Positions 1 to 23,650 of a DNA stretch of 37,127 nt are shown here, piece after piece. The stretch comes from Methylococcales bacterium. Its GTDB lineage: Bacteria; Pseudomonadota; Gammaproteobacteria; Methylococcales; Methylomonadaceae. The stretch is from the NCBI GenBank assembly GCA_030753675.1, contig JASMBU010000013.1, positions 1 to 37,127 on the forward strand, written 5' to 3'. The first letter of the stretch is position 1, and each line of letters begins with the position of its first letter. The notes under the pieces were generated by a model that made no database searches, had not been told where the DNA came from, and saw only the letters and a list, made by a program, of their open reading frames with translations. The position numbers and the translations under genes are program-made.

Positions 1-321
1 TTTCTTCGAACCCGTTATTGGCAAGAGCAACAACGTACGGTCTGGATATTAGAAGAAATAGGGAAAAACGAGCCGATAACCGTGGGTGTGATTATCGACA
101 ACCACAAAATTGTCCAACTGCAAGTTCTGGCATTTCGAGAAAGTCGCGGTTGGGAAGTTAAACACAGTTTCTTTACTGACCAGTTCATAGCCTCAACACT
201 GTCTGCTGAACAAACACTCAGCAAATCGATTGACGGCATTTCCGGCGCCACCCTGTCGGTTAATGCCTTAACTAAAATCGCCCAACTCGCACTTTTTTTT
301 GATCAAACGATTGGCCCATGA
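1..321 (+). CDS. FMN-binding domain protein, C-terminal part (5' end outside window)
   Basis: The reading frame is open from base 1, so the gene begins upstream of the window; the GTG at 82 is internal and not a start. The visible 106 residues contain the short motif SGATLS near the end. In FMN_bind-domain proteins the threonine of an (S/T)GAT motif carries covalent FMN, attached by the flavin transferase ApbE outside the cytoplasm. The likely role is a periplasmic, membrane-linked one-electron carrier. The stop overlaps the start of the next gene (ATGA at 318-321), a PepSY-type membrane protein, so the two are probably translated together and may work as one electron-transfer unit. What lies upstream, including the signal peptide, cannot be seen. 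Confidence 0.8.
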   Translation, partial: FLRTRYWQEQQRTVWILEEIGKNEPITVGVIIDNHKIVQLQVLAFRESRGWEVKHSFFTDQFIASTLSAEQTLSKSIDGISGATLSVNALTKIAQLALFFDQTIGP

Positions 322-1079
322 AAAACGCCCGAAAATCGCCGTGGCGACTGCTCTATAAACTCCATCGCTATCTGGGGCTTGCCATCAGTATGATTTTAAT
401 TCTACTGGCCATTACCGGCATTGCCTTAAATCACACCGATGACTGGCAACTTAATAGCCGTTATATTAAATCACCTACCGTGCTAAATTGGTATGGCCTT
501 AATCGACCCAGTGCTATTCGTAGCTTTAAAGCAAAACCGCATTGGATCAGCCAACTGGATCAACAAAGCTACTTTAACAACCAGGCTTTAATCACTAACA
601 AACAATTACTGGTCGGCGCTATCCGTACCGAAGCCTTCTTAGTTTTGGCTTTTGAAAAACAATTATTACTGATTTCTGACAACGGCACCCTCATTGAAAA
701 AATACCGTTAGAAAAAGCTATTCATTCGATTGGGGTCAGCGGACAAGACTCGGTTTTTATTCACCTAGACACCCAGATCAAAGTCAGCCATGACGGATTA
801 CTCTCGTGGCAAAGCGCCCCAGATTCCGGTATTCAATGGAGTCAAGAAACCGCACTAACTGAACCGTTAAGCGACCAAATCCAGCAAACACACCGACAAC
901 ACATTATCCCCTATGAACGCTTCTTACTCGACCTGCATAGCGGGCGACTCTTTGGTGAAGTCGGTGTTTTTGTCGTTGACCTGAGTGGTATTCTACTCAT
1001 ATTATTAACCCTTTCAGGGTGTTGGATCTGGATCAGACACCGAATAAAATCACGATTCCACAATAAAAGGCTATATTAA
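318..1079 (+). CDS. PepSY-associated transmembrane protein
   Basis: A 253-residue protein with two clear hydrophobic segments, at about residues 18-37 and 217-239, and a hydrophilic loop of about 180 residues between them. Both termini are rich in Arg and Lys, which puts them in the cytoplasm and the loop in the periplasm. The start (KLHRYLGL just before the first helix) and the WIWIRHR ending are typical of the PepSY-associated TM family, often found beside FMN-binding proteins and proposed to pass electrons across the membrane. It overlaps the upstream FMN-binding gene by 4 bases, and its stop directly abuts the thiD start. A redox or haem/flavin-handling role is inferred from family and context. 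No haem motif of the CxxCH type is present. Confidence 0.72.
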   Translation: MKNARKSPWRLLYKLHRYLGLAISMILILLAITGIALNHTDDWQLNSRYIKSPTVLNWYGLNRPSAIRSFKAKPHWISQLDQQSYFNNQALITNKQLLVGAIRTEAFLVLAFEKQLLLISDNGTLIEKIPLEKAIHSIGVSGQDSVFIHLDTQIKVSHDGLLSWQSAPDSGIQWSQETALTEPLSDQIQQTHRQHIIPYERFLLDLHSGRLFGEVGVFVVDLSGILLILLTLSGCWIWIRHRIKSRFHNKRLY

Positions 1080-1871
1080 ATGAGCAATTGTCCGCCGGTT
1101 GTCTTAAGCTTTTCAGGTCACGATCCTTCTGGGGGCGCAGGCATTCAGGCCGATATTGAAACCCTCTCAAGCCACCAGTGTCATAGCACCAGCATCATCA
1201 CCGCACTCACCGAACAAGACACCACCAATGTCTACCGTATTTTCCCGCAACAACCCGCCACCATCATTCAACAAGCAAATCGTATTTTTAACGATATGCC
1301 GGTCAAGGCTATTAAAATAGGTCTGATTGGCCATGCCGACATCGCCTATAGTATCGCTAAAATTATTATCGAGCACCCTGAAATACCCGTAGTACTGGAC
1401 CCTATCTTAGCCGCTGGCGGCGGCACACCCGTCGCCAACCAAGCCTTGATTGAAGCGATCATTGAAGCCTTATTACCACTCACTACCGTACTCACACCGA
1501 ACAGCGAAGAAGCACGCAAATTAACATCGCACCATGACCTTGATAACTGCGGCATACAATTACTGCAATCAGGCTGCCAATATGTTCTGATCACTGGAAC
1601 CCATGAGCAAACCCCAAATGTAACCCATAAACTGTACCACCAAGACCGCTGCATTGAGACCCTGTCGTGGGACCGACTGCCCCATGACTATCACGGCTCG
1701 GGTTGTACACTGGCAACCAGTATCGCCGCTTTATTAGCCTATCAACTCACGCCGGTCACCGCGATTATTGAAGCTCAGCAATACTGTTGGGACACCCTCG
1801 ACAATGGCTATAAAATTGGCCAAGGTCAACACCTACCTAACCGCCTGTTCTGGATGCAAACAGACCCATGA
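1080..1871 (+). CDS. thiD: Hydroxymethylpyrimidine/phosphomethylpyrimidine kinase
   Basis: ThiD phosphorylates HMP to HMP-P and then to HMP-PP, the pyrimidine half of thiamine diphosphate, in the cytoplasm. The 263-residue length fits the family. The N-terminal SFSGHDPSGGAGIQADI segment is the substrate loop of the ribokinase-like fold, and the GSGCT motif near residue 208 forms the anion hole with the catalytic cysteine seen in ThiD enzymes. The start abuts the stop of the PepSY gene, and the 3' end overlaps thiE by 4 bases (ATGA), so it lies inside a long operon. No TPP riboswitch can be placed here because the operon's 5' end is outside the window. Confidence 0.95.
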   Translation: MSNCPPVVLSFSGHDPSGGAGIQADIETLSSHQCHSTSIITALTEQDTTNVYRIFPQQPATIIQQANRIFNDMPVKAIKIGLIGHADIAYSIAKIIIEHPEIPVVLDPILAAGGGTPVANQALIEAIIEALLPLTTVLTPNSEEARKLTSHHDLDNCGIQLLQSGCQYVLITGTHEQTPNVTHKLYHQDRCIETLSWDRLPHDYHGSGCTLATSIAALLAYQLTPVTAIIEAQQYCWDTLDNGYKIGQGQHLPNRLFWMQTDP

Positions 1872-2500
1872 AATTTCCCACAAGCGGCGTTTACGCCATT
1901 ACCCAAACGGAAGGAAAAACAGACCATGCTATCGTCAAGGCAACCCTAGCAGCTCTTAAAGGCGGCGCTGCTGTCATTCAATACCGTCATAAAAACCCAC
2001 GAGATGTCTCCATTACCTTGGCCCAAGAAGTTCACCGTCATTGTCAATATTTCAACGTACCCCTACTGATTAATGACAACATCGAATTAGCACACGCAAT
2101 CGGTGCCGAGGGTGTTCATCTGGGTCAAAACGATGCCAGTATCGAAACCGCCCAAACCCGACTGGGCCCTGAGGCTATTATCGGTGTCTCCTGTTATGAC
2201 TCTTTAGACTTAGCACTCAAGGCGCAAAAACAACAAATCAGTTATGTTGCCTTTGGCCGCTTCTTTTGCTCTGAATCCAAACCCCAAGCACCGCCCGCAC
2301 AGCTCTCTACACTCACCCAAGCCGCACAAAAAATCACCCTGCCGATTGTAGCGATTGGCGGTATTTTACCCAGCAACGGTCACCTGTTACTGAATGCCGG
2401 CGCTGATGTACTCGCTATTATTGGTGGCATCTTTGATCAAGACCCGTTCACTGCGACGCAACATTATTGCCGGCTTTTTAATACTGATACTGAAACGTGA
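1868..2500 (+). CDS. thiE: Thiamine-phosphate synthase
   Basis: ThiE joins HMP-PP and thiazole phosphate to make thiamine monophosphate. The 210-residue protein is a TIM barrel with the expected stretches in order: QYRHK (pyrophosphate binding) near residue 38, LLINDN and GVHLGQND in the middle, GVSCY, YVAFGRFF, and AIGGI near the C-terminus. It overlaps thiD by 4 bases, and its TGA overlaps the ATG proposed for soxX by one base (TGATG at 2498-2502). The thiDE pair directly upstream of sox genes is unusual. Other thiamine genes (thiC, thiG, thiS, thiL) are not in the window. Confidence 0.95.
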   Translation: MKFPTSGVYAITQTEGKTDHAIVKATLAALKGGAAVIQYRHKNPRDVSITLAQEVHRHCQYFNVPLLINDNIELAHAIGAEGVHLGQNDASIETAQTRLGPEAIIGVSCYDSLDLALKAQKQQISYVAFGRFFCSESKPQAPPAQLSTLTQAAQKITLPIVAIGGILPSNGHLLLNAGADVLAIIGGIFDQDPFTATQHYCRLFNTDTET

Positions 2501-2868
2501 TGACAACGATGAAAACCGTCGGACTGCTCTTAGCCTTACTGATCATCGGCTGCACGCCCCCGCTCAATCTCGAACCACAGATGAATGGTCAACAATTAGC
2601 CTTTGACCGAAAAAAAGGCAATTGCCTGGCTTGCCACCGAATCGCTAACGGTGAATCTCCCGGCAACATCGGGCCACCGTTAACTCATCTAAGCACCCGT
2701 TTTACCCACAAGGATGCTCTGGTCACGTTTATTGAAGACCCGACCCGCTTTAATCCCGAGACCAGCATGCCACCTTTCGGAAAAAATAATATTCTTAGCC
2801 ACCAAGAAATTCAAATGATCGCCAATTTTCTATGGACACTGCCGGCAACTCAAACCATAATCCCATAG
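2500..2868 (+). CDS. soxX: Sulfur-oxidation c-type cytochrome SoxX, predicted lipoprotein
   Basis: SoxX is the small haem subunit of SoxAX, which oxidatively couples thiosulfate to the SoxY cysteine in the periplasm. About 122 residues, with one haem site CLACH near residue 43 and a downstream SMPPFG motif that supplies the distal methionine ligand. The N-terminus has a hydrophobic stretch ending IIGC, which fits a lipobox, so the mature protein may be membrane-anchored; most SoxX proteins are soluble with an ordinary signal peptide. I chose the ATG at 2500, which overlaps the thiE stop. GTG 2497 and ATG 2509 are alternatives that do not change the mature product. A 42-base gap separates it from soxY. 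The Sox assignment rests on haem/methionine spacing plus the soxYZA neighbours. Confidence 0.88.
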   Translation: MTTMKTVGLLLALLIIGCTPPLNLEPQMNGQQLAFDRKKGNCLACHRIANGESPGNIGPPLTHLSTRFTHKDALVTFIEDPTRFNPETSMPPFGKNNILSHQEIQMIANFLWTLPATQTIIP

Positions 2869-2910
2869 GATAAGAATCAAATCTTTAATCACCTTGATTA
2901 TGAGTACTTA

Positions 2911-3387
2911 ATGATGCAAACACGTCGCCAATTTATCAAAAAAACACTCACTATTGGCGGGGCTTTTTGGGCCTCTTCATGGCTGATTGTCAAACCACTT
3001 TGGGCACAAACTGAAACACTATGGCCCACTGGTCTATTTGCGCATTTAAAATACCAAGCAACCCTTGATCAGATTACCGGTGGACAAGCCCTTATTGCTT
3101 CCAAAGACATTACCCTTACCATTCCACGGATTGCCGAAAATGGCGCACTCATTCCTTTTACCCTTTCTTCAACGATCGAAAAGGCTGAACGTGTTTTTGT
3201 TCTAGTTAAAAAGAACCCAGTTCCACTAGTAGCTCGTTTTACCCTATCGCCACAGGTCAACACACAACTCTCAGCACGCTTAAAAATGGCTAAAACTAGT
3301 CAAGTCGTTAGCATTGTCTTGGCCAACGGTCAGTATTATTATACCGACAAGACCGTTAAAGTAACCCTTGGCGGCTGTGGAGGCTAG
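2911..3387 (+). CDS. soxY: Thiosulfate oxidation carrier protein SoxY
   Basis: SoxY carries the sulfur substrate covalently on the cysteine of its C-terminal swinging arm during thiosulfate oxidation. The 158-residue protein ends in the diagnostic GGCGG motif. The N-terminus has a twin-arginine signal (TRRQFIKK followed by a hydrophobic run to about residue 33), as expected for SoxY, which folds and binds SoxZ before Tat export. It lies between soxX and soxZ. The sequence ahead of the ATG at 2911 has only a weak purine signal (GAG at 2902-2904), and ATG 2914 is an equally possible start. The codons for the last two glycines double as the ribosome-binding site of soxZ. Confidence 0.96.
   Translation: MMQTRRQFIKKTLTIGGAFWASSWLIVKPLWAQTETLWPTGLFAHLKYQATLDQITGGQALIASKDITLTIPRIAENGALIPFTLSSTIEKAERVFVLVKKNPVPLVARFTLSPQVNTQLSARLKMAKTSQVVSIVLANGQYYYTDKTVKVTLGGCGG
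3379..3383 (+). promoter_or_regulatory. Shine-Dalgarno site of soxZ inside the soxY C-terminal codons
   Basis: GGAGG at 3379-3383 lies in the GGA-GGC codons for the last two glycines of SoxY and sits five bases before the ATG at 3389. It decides the soxZ start in favour of 3389 rather than the in-frame GTG at 3368, which would lie inside soxY and add seven unconserved residues. Confidence 0.75.
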
Positions 3388-3388
3388 T

Positions 3389-3700
3389 ATGTCCAGTATT
3401 AAAATTCGCACCAAACGTCAACAAGGAACCACCCAAATAAGAACCTTAATTGCGCACCCGATGGAAACCGGTTTGAATACCGATAATCAAAACCAGAAAA
3501 CTATTGCAGCCCACTTTATTCAGACCTTAACGGTACGCCATAATGATGAAATTATTCTAACCACTGATATGGGTAGCGGAATATCTCGAAACCCATACTT
3601 TTCATTTGAAATGAAAGGCGGTGATGTAGGCGATAAAATCACTATTCAATGGTCTGACAATCAAGGTAACCGTGATTCCCAAGACGCCTTAATCTCATGA
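3389..3700 (+). CDS. soxZ: Thiosulfate oxidation carrier complex protein SoxZ
   Basis: SoxZ is the partner of SoxY in the heterodimeric carrier that shuttles sulfur intermediates between Sox enzymes in the periplasm. The 103-residue product (from ATG 3389) begins MSSIKIRTK and contains the family features HPMETG, FIQTLTV and an immunoglobulin-like beta sandwich ending with KITIQWSDNQG. There is no signal peptide of its own, consistent with export as a SoxYZ complex through Tat. It starts one base after the soxY stop region and overlaps soxA by 4 bases (ATGA at 3697-3700). Confidence 0.95.
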   Translation: MSSIKIRTKRQQGTTQIRTLIAHPMETGLNTDNQNQKTIAAHFIQTLTVRHNDEIILTTDMGSGISRNPYFSFEMKGGDVGDKITIQWSDNQGNRDSQDALIS

Positions 3701-4527
3701 CAAAACTGCTGTTCTGGTTGCTTTTTCTGGGCCTACTCCCAATTGCGCCCAGCACCGCTACACCGTTGAATGACCAACGCACGCTGCAACAGCATTTCTT
3801 TACTCAGTTTCCCACCCTTTCACGTCAGGATTTTGCAAACGGTGTCTACGCTCTTGACCCCGATGCCAAACAATCCTGGCTTGCCATTGAACAATTCCCC
3901 CCTTATGAGATAGCCATTGATCGGGGTAAAAAAAACTTCTTCACCCCGTTTAAAAACGGTCAACGCTATCAGGACTGTTTCGTTGATTATCAACAGGGCA
4001 TCAGTCAACACTACCCGTACTGGGATCTTAAAACCAAAACGGTGGTCACCTTAAGTCAGGCTATTAACCGCTGCCGGCAACTCAACCTAGAGGCCCCGCT
4101 CAAACCCACTGCCGGTGACTTAATTGCCTTAACCGCTTATCTCGCTTTTCTCTCAAGAGATCAGCCCATCGCCATTACCATACCGCCCGTACCTGCCGCC
4201 CAAGTCGCGTATCAACAAGGCAAAGACTATTACCATCAACGGCGTGGGCAGCTAAACTTTTCCTGCGCCAGTTGTCATATCCAAAATGCCGGTAAGCGCC
4301 TGCGTACTGAAACATTAAGCCCGTTACTGGGCCAAACGAGCAATTGGCCGACATACCGACTTAAATGGGGTCGTGTTGGTACGTTACATCAACGCTTTAT
4401 CGGCTGCCATCGACAAATCAGGGCAAAAACCCCAGCCCCTCAAAGCGAGGTTCTTCGAAACCTTGAATATTATATGAGTTATCTCAGTAACGGCCTTCCC
4501 ATTAATGGACCCAGTGTACGAAAATGA
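3697..4527 (+). CDS. soxA: Sulfur-oxidation cytochrome SoxA, single CxxCH haem site
   Basis: SoxA is the catalytic subunit of SoxAX, which forms the disulfide between thiosulfate and SoxY. The protein has 276 residues with a signal peptide of about 21 residues. It contains one classical haem-binding motif (CASCH, near residue 190), and the later segment RFIGCHRQIRA carries the conserved cysteine that ligates the active-site haem in this family. Two earlier cysteines (QDCF and NRCRQ) occupy the region where di-haem SoxA proteins have the first haem, so this is the mono-haem type with a probable disulfide there. It overlaps soxZ and moeA by 4 bases each. The assignment is secure from sequence and context. 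Confidence 0.93.
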   Translation: MTKLLFWLLFLGLLPIAPSTATPLNDQRTLQQHFFTQFPTLSRQDFANGVYALDPDAKQSWLAIEQFPPYEIAIDRGKKNFFTPFKNGQRYQDCFVDYQQGISQHYPYWDLKTKTVVTLSQAINRCRQLNLEAPLKPTAGDLIALTAYLAFLSRDQPIAITIPPVPAAQVAYQQGKDYYHQRRGQLNFSCASCHIQNAGKRLRTETLSPLLGQTSNWPTYRLKWGRVGTLHQRFIGCHRQIRAKTPAPQSEVLRNLEYYMSYLSNGLPINGPSVRK

Positions 4528-5786
4528 TTAAAAACCAAGCAAACTGCTCAGATATTAATGAACCTAACTTAATAACTGTCAGTACAGCACTGAAGAAAAT
4601 CCTCAGCCAAATTAAACCGCTGCACCAACACCAGCAAATCAATCTTGAGCAAGCCCGCGGTCGCACCTTATCCCATTCGATCATGGCCCCATTTAATGTA
4701 CCGCCCCATCGAAATTCAGCCGTTGACGGCTATGCCATAAACCACACTGATTTACCCGAGCCGGGTCATCTAGTCGAACTATCCATTGCCGGCTGTGCCT
4801 ATGCGGGCCAACCTTTTACCGACGCCCTTGCGCCCGGTGAGTGTATTAGAATTATGACCGGCGCCCCAGTCCCTGAAGGACTGACTATTATTATCATGCA
4901 GGAACAAGTCGAGCATTTTGATAATCATATTCGCATTGATCACAACCACCGACTCCATCAAAATATCAGACAAGCCGGTGAAGATATTGCCCAAGAATCT
5001 CCGGTATTATTCGCGGGAAAACTATTAACGCCGGCAGACATTGGAATTATGGCTTCTTTAGGATTAACCCAAATCAATGTCAATCGAAAACTCCGCATTG
5101 CCATTGCCTCAACCGGCGATGAACTGCACAGCCTAGGCAGTGAATTACCCCATGGCGGTATTTATGACAGTAATACCCATACCCTCCAAGCCAGTTTAGA
5201 TCGCCCTGACATCACCGTGGTCAACTTAGGAATTTTGGATGATAACCCTGCATCATTGCAACACTGCTTTGAAGAAAGCGCCCAGCATTACGATCTGATT
5301 ATTTCAACCGGAGGCGTTTCGGTCGGCGATGCCGACCATACCCGAGAAGCCTTACGGGCGTTAGGCACGGTTGAATTTTGGAAAGTTGCGATCAAACCGG
5401 GGCGCCCCTTAGCCTTTGGTTGCGTCAATAAAACCCCTTTTTTTGGCTTGCCGGGTAATCCTGTTGCGGTCTTAGTGACCTTCTACCAATTTGTTTTACC
5501 TGCCATCGATCAATTACTCGGTATCACCGACCGACCGGTTTGCCCGACCTTCACCGCCATCAGTACCGAAGCCATACGCAAACGCCCCGGACGGACAGAA
5601 ATTCAACGCGGAATTATCTCCCAAGCCCCCAATGGCCACTGGCGAGTCAAAACCACCGGCCAACAAGGATCCGGTATTTTACGTTCAATGAGTCTAGCCA
5701 ATGCATTTATTATCCTTGCGCATAACCAAGGTCCTGTGAGTGCAGGTGAACCGGTGACCGTACAACCCTTTTCAGGACTGCTATAA
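4524..5786 (+). CDS. moeA: Molybdopterin molybdenumtransferase
   Basis: MoeA inserts molybdate into adenylylated molybdopterin, the last common step of molybdenum cofactor synthesis. The protein has 420 residues, close to the usual length. Family motifs are visible in order: NSAVDGYAI near residue 67, the MIMTGAPVP-like segment RIMTGAPVPEG near 110, STGDEL, IYDSNTH, STGGVSVGDADH near 258, KPGRPLAFG, and LPGNPVA. It overlaps soxA (ATGA at 4524-4527) and is the last gene of the operon. Its place here suggests that a molybdoenzyme of sulfur metabolism (a SoxCD or sulfite dehydrogenase type) is used by the same organism; that is inference. It ends 2 bases from the convergent yadH-type gene, with no visible terminator between. 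Confidence 0.95.
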   Translation: MIKNQANCSDINEPNLITVSTALKKILSQIKPLHQHQQINLEQARGRTLSHSIMAPFNVPPHRNSAVDGYAINHTDLPEPGHLVELSIAGCAYAGQPFTDALAPGECIRIMTGAPVPEGLTIIIMQEQVEHFDNHIRIDHNHRLHQNIRQAGEDIAQESPVLFAGKLLTPADIGIMASLGLTQINVNRKLRIAIASTGDELHSLGSELPHGGIYDSNTHTLQASLDRPDITVVNLGILDDNPASLQHCFEESAQHYDLIISTGGVSVGDADHTREALRALGTVEFWKVAIKPGRPLAFGCVNKTPFFGLPGNPVAVLVTFYQFVLPAIDQLLGITDRPVCPTFTAISTEAIRKRPGRTEIQRGIISQAPNGHWRVKTTGQQGSGILRSMSLANAFIILAHNQGPVSAGEPVTVQPFSGLL

Positions 5787-5788
5787 AA

Positions 5789-6553
5789 TTATTGTTTAAT
5801 GCCTATCCCTTTATCTAGCAAGTACAAACTCAGACTAATTAAGGTAACAATAAAACCAACAATCATCGTTAAAGCCAGCGTAATATCAACATCGGTCACA
5901 CCGATTAAGCCATAACGAAAACTATTTACAATATATAAAATCGGGTTGGCCAAAGAGATATTTTGCCAAAGCTCAGGTAGCATCTCGACCGAATAAAAAA
6001 CCCCGCCCAAATAAGTCAGGGGTGTCAAAATAAAATTAGGGATGATCGAAATATCATCAAAACTATCTGCAAAAACGGCATTAATAAAACCGGCTAAAGC
6101 GAATAATACCGCGGTCAAAAAGAAAATCAAACAAGACAATCCCCAGTGACTCACTGAGATTGAAGTAAACAATAATGAAATTCCAATCACCACCGATCCC
6201 ACCAAGAGTCCTCGGCAAACCCCGCCGCCCACATACCCGGCTAAAATAACCCAATTAGGTACGGGCGACACCAACAGCTCTTCAATATGACGCTGAAATT
6301 TAGTGGAATAAAAAGAGGAAACCACATTCGCATAAGAGTGACTGATCACCGACATCAAAATAATACCCGGCACAATGTAGTCCATATAACTGGCCCCAGA
6401 GATATCACCTATGCGCTGTCCCATCAGCGTACCAAAAATTAAAAAATACAAGGCGGTGGTGATCGCTGGGGGGAGCATAGTCTGAGGCCAAATACGCATG
6501 AAACGGCGCACTTCTTTAGACATAATGGTCAACAAAGCAATTCGGTAACCCAT
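5789..6553 (-). CDS. yadH: ABC-2 type transporter permease, YadH family
   Basis: This is the membrane subunit of an ABC exporter. The 254-residue protein has about six hydrophobic segments and resembles E. coli YadH along its whole length, with recognisable stretches RFMRIWPQT, MDYIVPGIILMSV, KFQRHIEELLVSPVP, GYVGGGV and LTPLTYLGGVFYS (the last is typical of the ABC-2 permease family). It lies 4 bases downstream of the matching ATPase gene, so the two form an operon. The substrate is unknown; neither YadGH nor this pair has an agreed transported compound. The gene converges on moeA with only 2 bases between stop codons. Confidence 0.9.
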   Translation of the reverse strand: MGYRIALLTIMSKEVRRFMRIWPQTMLPPAITTALYFLIFGTLMGQRIGDISGASYMDYIVPGIILMSVISHSYANVVSSFYSTKFQRHIEELLVSPVPNWVILAGYVGGGVCRGLLVGSVVIGISLLFTSISVSHWGLSCLIFFLTAVLFALAGFINAVFADSFDDISIIPNFILTPLTYLGGVFYSVEMLPELWQNISLANPILYIVNSFRYGLIGVTDVDITLALTMIVGFIVTLISLSLYLLDKGIGIKQ

Positions 6554-23470: not shown

Positions 23471-23621
23471 GTATAATACTCCTAAAAATTATTCTGCCTG
23501 ACTTAGTGTCAAACAAAGGGTTACGCCTCCACCTATCCCATTTGATGACCCATCCGCTAAATTTTTAGCTAAAACAGGCACCCTATCAAATGTGTCGATT
23601 AGGTGTGAGAATTAACTGTTC

Positions 23622-23650
23622 TTTATACCATGTTTTGCAGTTACCAACAA
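23622..23650 (-). promoter_or_regulatory. Likely sigma-70 promoter of rpsB
   Basis: On the minus strand TTGTTG (23650-23645), 17 bases, then TATAAA (23627-23622). It would give a leader of about 145 bases before the rpsB start. It overlaps the weaker promoter proposed for the divergent map gene. Confidence 0.5.

Follow-up and report, generated by a model that had tools for sequence, protein, structure and literature searches.

A conserved thiDE-soxXYZA-moeA gene row in one family of Methylococcales, probably a composite operon

Why would sox genes lie between genes of thiamine synthesis and a gene of molybdenum cofactor synthesis, behind a flavoprotein gene? This question is raised by bases 1-5786 of a stretch from a Methylococcales bacterium (the first 37,127 bases of contig C4, JASMBU010000013.1, in an assembly of 1.72 Mb and 85 contigs rated 99.5% complete; this whole stretch is hereafter the window). 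Open reading frames and family models agree on nine tightly packed genes of the same strand in the order FMN_bind-PepSY_TM-thiD-thiE-soxX-soxY-soxZ-soxA-moeA, and an earlier note on this DNA had described just such a row, with the same junctions and a 42-base gap before soxY. From the gene order, the protein families, their conservation and the positions of the other sox genes, we infer that the row is quite probably a composite operon of independent modules that would be co-transcribed and share expression, namely a core of thiDE, soxXYZA and moeA onto which a flavin module was joined.

Conservation of the thiDE-sox-moeA row

SoxA over the cut-off was found in 74 of the 311 Methylococcales genomes searched, and we compared the sox loci of all other matches of this kind (75 stretches) together with one weaker match, marking genes by profiles grown from the window proteins. 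Families are labeled f1 (that of the window), f2, f3 and f5 to f8, and genera g18, g23 and g29; stretches L004 and L039 look like one and the same contig, as do L005 and L050, and only L039 and L050 were counted. In f1, thiE lies directly 5' of soxX in 34 of the 36 soxX loci whose upstream sequence extends for 1.8 kb or more, and in 29 of 31 loci, from nine genera, when the window and four loci from the thiE search are set aside. The two exceptions are L009, which is one genome's second soxA-soxX locus, and L041, where thiE is next in order and lies beyond the gap rule. At the other end of the core, moeA adjoins soxA in 37 of 59 f1 loci under the gap rule and in 39 by order, including two just outside the rule; gap counts were made on stop-to-stop frames and are thus lower bounds, which missed soxA-moeA in L011 and L022 and thiE-sox in L041, L140, L146, L150 and L165, all of them neighbors when judged by order.

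The joints themselves are also conserved. With start codons picked by a simple rule, soxA and moeA overlap by 4 bases in 40 of 41 adjacent pairs, and the spacing of thiE and soxX is -40 to +30 bases in 35 of 36 loci, with an exact 4-base overlap in 20 of the 36. Both 4-base overlaps recur in other genera, which argues that the joints are more than chance. Upstream of thiD the genes vary by genus (a multicopper oxidase, a UPF0093 membrane protein with a redoxin, glycogen-type genes as judged by eye, and others) with thiDE-sox constant, and this is the best internal control that thiDE and sox held together. Because the thiE-soxX and soxA-moeA joints recur across f1, the order is real and conserved, a family-level trait and not a recent accident. 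The earlier note had allowed for an order confined to one genome by recent rearrangement, and for thiDE as a passenger; neither agrees with the data, as thiDE-sox-moeA spans many genera, thiE-sox is among the most conserved joints, and thiDE stands beside soxY in 15 loci that have no soxXA (see below). In a quick SoxYZ tree of 75 rows, capped at three per genus (a cap that left out the window row, for which three other members of its genus stand), the f1 rows group together (44 rows, SH-aLRT 86), the f5 and f6 rows form long branches outside f1, and f2 falls among other Gammaproteobacteria. The window's own row falls with its genus in the tree on which the SoxY arms were compared (see below).

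In the window, the core lies on the forward strand and begins with thiD (1080..1871; hydroxymethylpyrimidine (HMP)/HMP phosphate kinase family, PF08543 235.6 bits) and thiE (1868..2500; thiamine phosphate synthase, TIGR00693 162.3 bits, cut-off 145.1). They are followed by soxX (2497..2868; TIGR04485 84.1 bits, cut-off 61), for a monohaem cytochrome c that has a lipobox-like N-terminus (LLIIGC) and then CLACH; soxY (2911..3387; TIGR04488 137.3 bits, cut-off 125), whose product carries, as judged by eye, a twin-arginine translocation-type leader (TRRQFIKK) and a C-terminal KVTLGGCGG arm; soxZ (3389..3700 from an ATG at about 3389, a TTG at 3368 being also possible; TIGR04490 116.7 bits, cut-off 76); and soxA (3697..4527; TIGR04484 231.2 bits, cut-off 110; solved SoxA 1h31 at 2e-28), with one CxxCH haem site and an RFIGC cysteine. 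The row closes with moeA (4524..5786), for a molybdopterin molybdotransferase (NF007960 523.1 bits, cut-off 440) in which MoeA_N, MoCF_biosynth and MoeA_C are all present. Overlaps of 4 bases occur at FMN_bind/PepSY, thiD/thiE, thiE/soxX, soxZ/soxA and soxA/moeA, PepSY and thiD abut, and the 42 bases between soxX and soxY are the sole real gap of the nine-gene row. The LxGC motif of the SoxX N-terminus was seen by eye at 2497-2560 in the window, 3499-3560 in L004 and 4333-4390 in L005, and SoxX may be a lipoprotein. The next gene after moeA is a convergent ABC2 permease gene (5789-6553).

Loci that depart from the row

Several observations weigh against a composite operon with shared expression, or narrow it. 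The row marks a single family and not the whole order Methylococcales, because the sox loci of f2 (soxXYZA and then soxB, 11 loci) and f8 (soxXYZA, 2 loci) have neither thiDE nor moeA: thiE is 5' of soxX in 0 of 10 f2 and 0 of 2 f8 loci, and moeA is at none of the 11 f2 loci and at neither f8 locus. Within f1, moeA is not present at 20 of the 59 soxA loci with downstream sequence. The operon is moreover split in three g18 genomes and one g29 genome examined, with thiDE-soxX away from the soxA locus. Nor was any regulatory logic found: at gathering scores, Rfam shows no thiamine pyrophosphate (TPP) riboswitch or other match near thiD, whether in the window or in six related loci, and TPP-riboswitch control of the whole operon was rejected on this ground. 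A promoter-like site (10 of 12) at 2833-2861, just 5' of soxY, could separate soxYZA-moeA from thiDE (sites at that level number 20 in the region, with 10.2 expected), and the window ThiD, though well within PF08543, is under the TIGR00097 equivalog cut-off (188.5 vs 204.95 bits). A comparison with the rest of the class, by contrast, speaks for the composite operon: one sox locus was taken from each of 40 genomes, out of 159 class genomes with SoxA over the cut-off, picked for flank length and family spread, and 0 of the 40 has a thiD, thiE or moeA match. This count was made with profiles that were grown from Methylococcales and have no positive control outside the order, and on stretches several of which end early at a contig end. 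The earlier note was right that the gene mix is unusual. The gene after soxA is soxB in 11 of 11 f2 loci and in 12 of these 40 loci outside the order.

The split thiDE-soxX loci are L158, L159, L160 and L161, and the corresponding soxA-moeA loci, L060, L052, L043 and L076, lie elsewhere in the genome. The window's sole Rfam match at gathering scores is a t44 RNA (RF00127, 64.4 bits) at 23520-23627 on the reverse strand.

Some of these departures would also be expected if the order were neutral. In that case soxXYZA would have landed by chance in an ancestral genome, with the housekeeping genes thiDE on one side and moeA on the other, and would have been kept by descent with no benefit. The absence of moeA from those 20 f1 loci fits such a history. 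So do loci without sox in which thiE adjoins moeA (L149, family f3) or lies near it (L148, f7); they count against the composite operon too, and sox may have entered a thi-moe neighborhood or may have been lost from one. ThiDE and MoeA, moreover, are cytoplasmic cofactor enzymes that are not known to have a step in common with Sox. Yet the region upstream of thiD has been reshuffled between genera and thiDE-sox stays together with its 4-base overlaps, and thiDE remains with soxY in 15 loci after the loss of soxXA; we therefore consider neutral descent possible but rather unlikely.

The loci that have lost soxXA invite a different explanation. We surveyed 40 thiE loci, selected so as to sample the order widely; for 34 of the loci, the genome has no SoxA over the cut-off. 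A sox gene follows thiE in 15 of the 40, and among the 34 genomes it is soxY-soxZ in 11 and a non-sox gene in 23. With four more, these 11 make 15 orphan thiDE-soxY loci, from families f1, f5 and f6, in which soxZ is also present in 14 and one is cut by a contig end inside soxY. There is no soxX or soxA on any of these loci, and searches of the 15 genomes gave neither a SoxA over the cut-off nor, at E 1e-80, a SoxB. The orphan SoxY has a twin-arginine leader in 15 of 15 cases and a C-terminal cysteine in all 14 with a complete 3' end, and TIGR04488 is the best model for each of the 10 scanned out of the 15, five of them over its cut-off.

These loci are an argument for placing the heart of the operon in thiDE-soxYZ-moeA and not in thiosulfate oxidation. 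SoxYZ would then be a periplasmic carrier of sulfane sulfur that is needed without SoxXAB in many methanotrophs, in a unit where thiDE and moeA are kept as sulfur handling is tied to the sulfur-dependent supply of thiamine and molybdenum cofactor; lineages like the host would have kept or added the full Sox set and, in two genera, a flavin carrier. The leaders and cysteines of the orphan SoxY are in line with this. However, SoxYZ is periplasmic and ThiE and MoeA are cytoplasmic, and no biochemical link from the one to the others is known to us. In 23 of those 34 genomes, besides, thiE is followed by something other than sox. In addition, the SoxY arm ends in GGCGG in 41 of the 41 soxA-bearing loci placed on the tree vs 2 of 14 orphans, and its loss in the other 12 also fits decay, with 2 to 4 independent contrasts behind the comparison. 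Retention of thiDE with soxYZ fits both a SoxXAB-independent carrier role and slow decay, and we hold a unit centered on SoxYZ to be doubtful, with the composite operon as our preferred explanation.

Two related candidates were rejected. A statistical link between the loss of soxXA and the loss of GGCGG reaches no significance with so few independent contrasts, and a role of orphan SoxYZ as a cytoplasmic sulfur donor for thiazole or molybdopterin is at odds with the twin-arginine leader-like N-terminus of all 15 proteins. Separately, dozens of Methylococcales have a short protein (mostly frames of 130-200 amino acids) that matches only the first half of SoxA, for example at G106:C1:2163972-2164247 and G297:C34:37019-37288, and that lies on a different contig from thiE in both genomes compared.

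The porin-FMN_bind-PepSY module

In front of thiD, the window holds a PepSY_TM membrane protein gene (318..1079, forward strand; PF03929 52.5 bits, PF16357 44.8 bits) and the 3' 106 codons of an FMN_bind gene (1..321, forward strand; PF04205 42.3 bits vs 22) with a DGISGATLS flavinylation-type motif, its 5' part missing as the contig begins at base 1. This break is most likely merely an assembly end, because L004 (Methylococcales bacterium OPU3_GD_OMZ) and L005 (Methylococcaceae bacterium UWMA-0047) carry the window order with the front intact: a porin gene, cut by a contig end in both, genes for a 160-amino-acid lipoprotein-like protein and a 168-amino-acid FMN_bind protein, PepSY, and then thiD onward to moeA.

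Relatives of the PepSY protein occur in 36 of the 311 genomes of the order, in 8 genera. The order porin-FMN_bind-PepSY was found in 20 of 20 further loci compared, and the gene next to it is thiD in 4 (all g23), another gene in 14 and cut off by a contig end in 2; with L129 (also g23) and the window's genus, thiDE is joined to the module in two genera. Among the 76 sox stretches of the order, the FMN_bind-PepSY pair is present in only two, both of the window's genus, and another stretch of that genus starts at thiD. The flavin pair thus belongs to a separate porin-FMN_bind-PepSY module and not to the sox core. The earlier note had offered as a possibility an electron path from Sox oxidation or its cofactors to a membrane flavoprotein, with thiDE perhaps a passenger. 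Taken as a transfer to the periplasmic flavoprotein and its PepSY membrane partner, and despite the same strand and the overlapping or abutting genes in the window, L004 and L005, we find such a path very improbable, since other genes stand next to the module in those 14 of 20 loci, the pair is so rare among sox stretches, and in the linked genus g23 every genome lacks both a SoxA over the cut-off and, at E 1e-80, a SoxB.

As to what the module does, DGISGATLS is present in 5 of 5 aligned FMN_bind proteins, and GATLSV, with D-G-I-S in front, is invariant in 25 of 25; we take a motif of this type to be the ApbE flavinylation motif. H16, H39 and H207 of the PepSY protein, candidate haem ligands, are invariant in 25 sequences, and a profile of these sequences has a weak match to the solved PepSY protein 7abw (E 3.8e-07 over the whole, just 0.2 for single stretches). 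Judged from its sequence, the PepSY_TM protein is a probable haem-bearing electron carrier. Porin_O_P is over the cut-off in 4 of 4 relatives scanned. Pfam found no ApbE, DUF2271 or DUF4198 in the porin, lipoprotein, FMN_bind and PepSY proteins, and the one ApbE of the genome lies elsewhere, beside nqrF. The front module would probably consist of an ApbE-flavinylated periplasmic flavoprotein and a membrane PepSY cytochrome that act in metal reduction or uptake, and would have become joined to thiDE in the two genera. A class II aldolase-family gene follows the module in one f8 locus (L166 8233-8793, reverse strand) and one f2 locus (L194 6745-7293, forward strand).

In earlier work, PepSY-like flavinylated systems are PF03929/PF16357 membrane proteins clustered with a flavinylated protein, and iron reduction and uptake are proposed for them (PMC8238504; PMC11334425). 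The host PepSY_TM gene, clustered with a flavinylated-type protein gene, resembles these under the definition of PMC8238504. The described clusters are frequently found with ApbE, DUF2271 and DUF4198, whereas the third partner in Methylococcales is an outer-membrane porin, and the main texts of both papers are free of the word "porin".

The Sox system of the host and of its family

The nearest named kin found are OPU3-type Methylococcales, and genes for the B and C subunits of a methane/ammonia monooxygenase are over the cut-off, the A subunit being present as two fragments at contig ends; given these genes and this kin, the host is read as a probable marine methanotroph among the Gammaproteobacteria. 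The A fragments (L174 146-1815, reverse strand, and L175 583-1341, forward strand) are at the ends of contigs C33 and C55, and the B and C proteins have lower E-values against the NCBIfam AmoB and AmoC models than against the joint methane/ammonia models.

As the earlier note had observed, soxB is not in the operon. The genome has a single copy on contig C5 (6130-7779; 767 bits vs a cut-off of 550), with no other sox gene within the 4.7 kb around it. SoxC is also over the cut-off (563 vs 420 bits), and the cytochrome c gene directly after it matches no SoxD-specific model. Of the soxCD and sorAB genes for which the note had advised a search of the genome, soxC followed by a cytochrome c gene was found, and no separate SorA-type sulfite dehydrogenase, soxC being the only Oxidored_molyb gene found in the assembly. 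A single ApbE gene was found on contig C22 (311 bits). Compared with the known Sox system (soxXYZAB and soxCD), the host is thus alike in having SoxX, SoxY, SoxZ, SoxA, SoxB and SoxC, all over curated cut-offs, and differs in that the genes are spread over three contigs, with thiDE and moeA flanking the XYZA part. Fifteen g18 genomes have SoxA over the cut-off (L052, L054, L055, L060, L067, L069 and L073 are among their stretches), and a SoxB was seen in none of them at E 1e-80, even though three are rated 100% complete; they may have a divergent SoxB.

The note had further suggested that MoeA supplies a sulfur molybdoenzyme. A SoxC is present, but a MoeA dedicated to Sox was rejected: SoxC needs the cofactor, yet it would probably share MoeA with NarG (2271 bits) and with three proteins of the formate dehydrogenase type, of which one is over the cut-off and two are under it, and a second MoeA, 39% identical to that of the operon, is encoded on C6.

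Altogether, these observations suggest the following scheme for a composite operon. The core thiDE-soxXYZA-moeA, with its overlapping frames, would have been inherited through much of the window's family, and soxXYZA would encode that half of a Sox system which binds thiosulfate and serves as its carrier in the periplasm, soxB and soxC being elsewhere. By analogy with known pathways, thiosulfate would be loaded by SoxXA on the SoxYZ cysteine; once SoxB has released sulfate, SoxCD would oxidize the sulfane sulfur left behind, with electrons passing to cytochrome c as a side energy source. The presence of thiDE and moeA on a shared transcript would serve mainly coordinated dosage, and MoeA would contribute to SoxC among other clients.

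Among gammaproteobacterial methanotrophs, sox and sqr genes have been reported in Methylotuvimicrobium (PMC12911358) and Methylobacter (PMC12810054; PMC13322032), as presence or absence of genes, with SoxB accompanied or not by SoxCD and one metagenome-assembled genome with soxXYZABCD; the excerpts of these reports contain no mention of a thiDE-sox-moeA order or of SoxYZ beside thiDE without SoxXAB. Among the literature matches listed, no paper combined soxXYZA, thiD and thiE, the order did not appear in titles or the starts of abstracts, and a query for OPU3 and Golfo Dulce matched nothing. The components are thus known, and their conserved combination in what appear to be methanotrophs was not found among the matches listed. 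As for the orphans, the excerpt of PMC11237559 describes a SoxYZ clade 4 whose bearers, methane-oxidizing symbionts among them, are not known to use thiosulfate as an energy source; the orphan SoxY of Methylococcales, for which TIGR04488 ("true" SoxY) was the best model in 10 of 10 scanned, would be set apart from it by model score and not by direct comparison.

Our results give a structure to the sox genes of methanotrophs, that is, a probable thiDE-soxXYZA operon found across the family, in many cases with moeA as its last gene and with soxB at another site. They reveal graded states, with SoxB, without detectable SoxB, and with SoxYZ alone, in the last of which thiDE-soxYZ is kept after the loss of SoxXA. 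The porin-FMN_bind-PepSY module of Methylococcales is set apart and merits its own test in metal reduction or uptake, and the role that SoxYZ may have in a methanotroph without other Sox proteins becomes a testable question.

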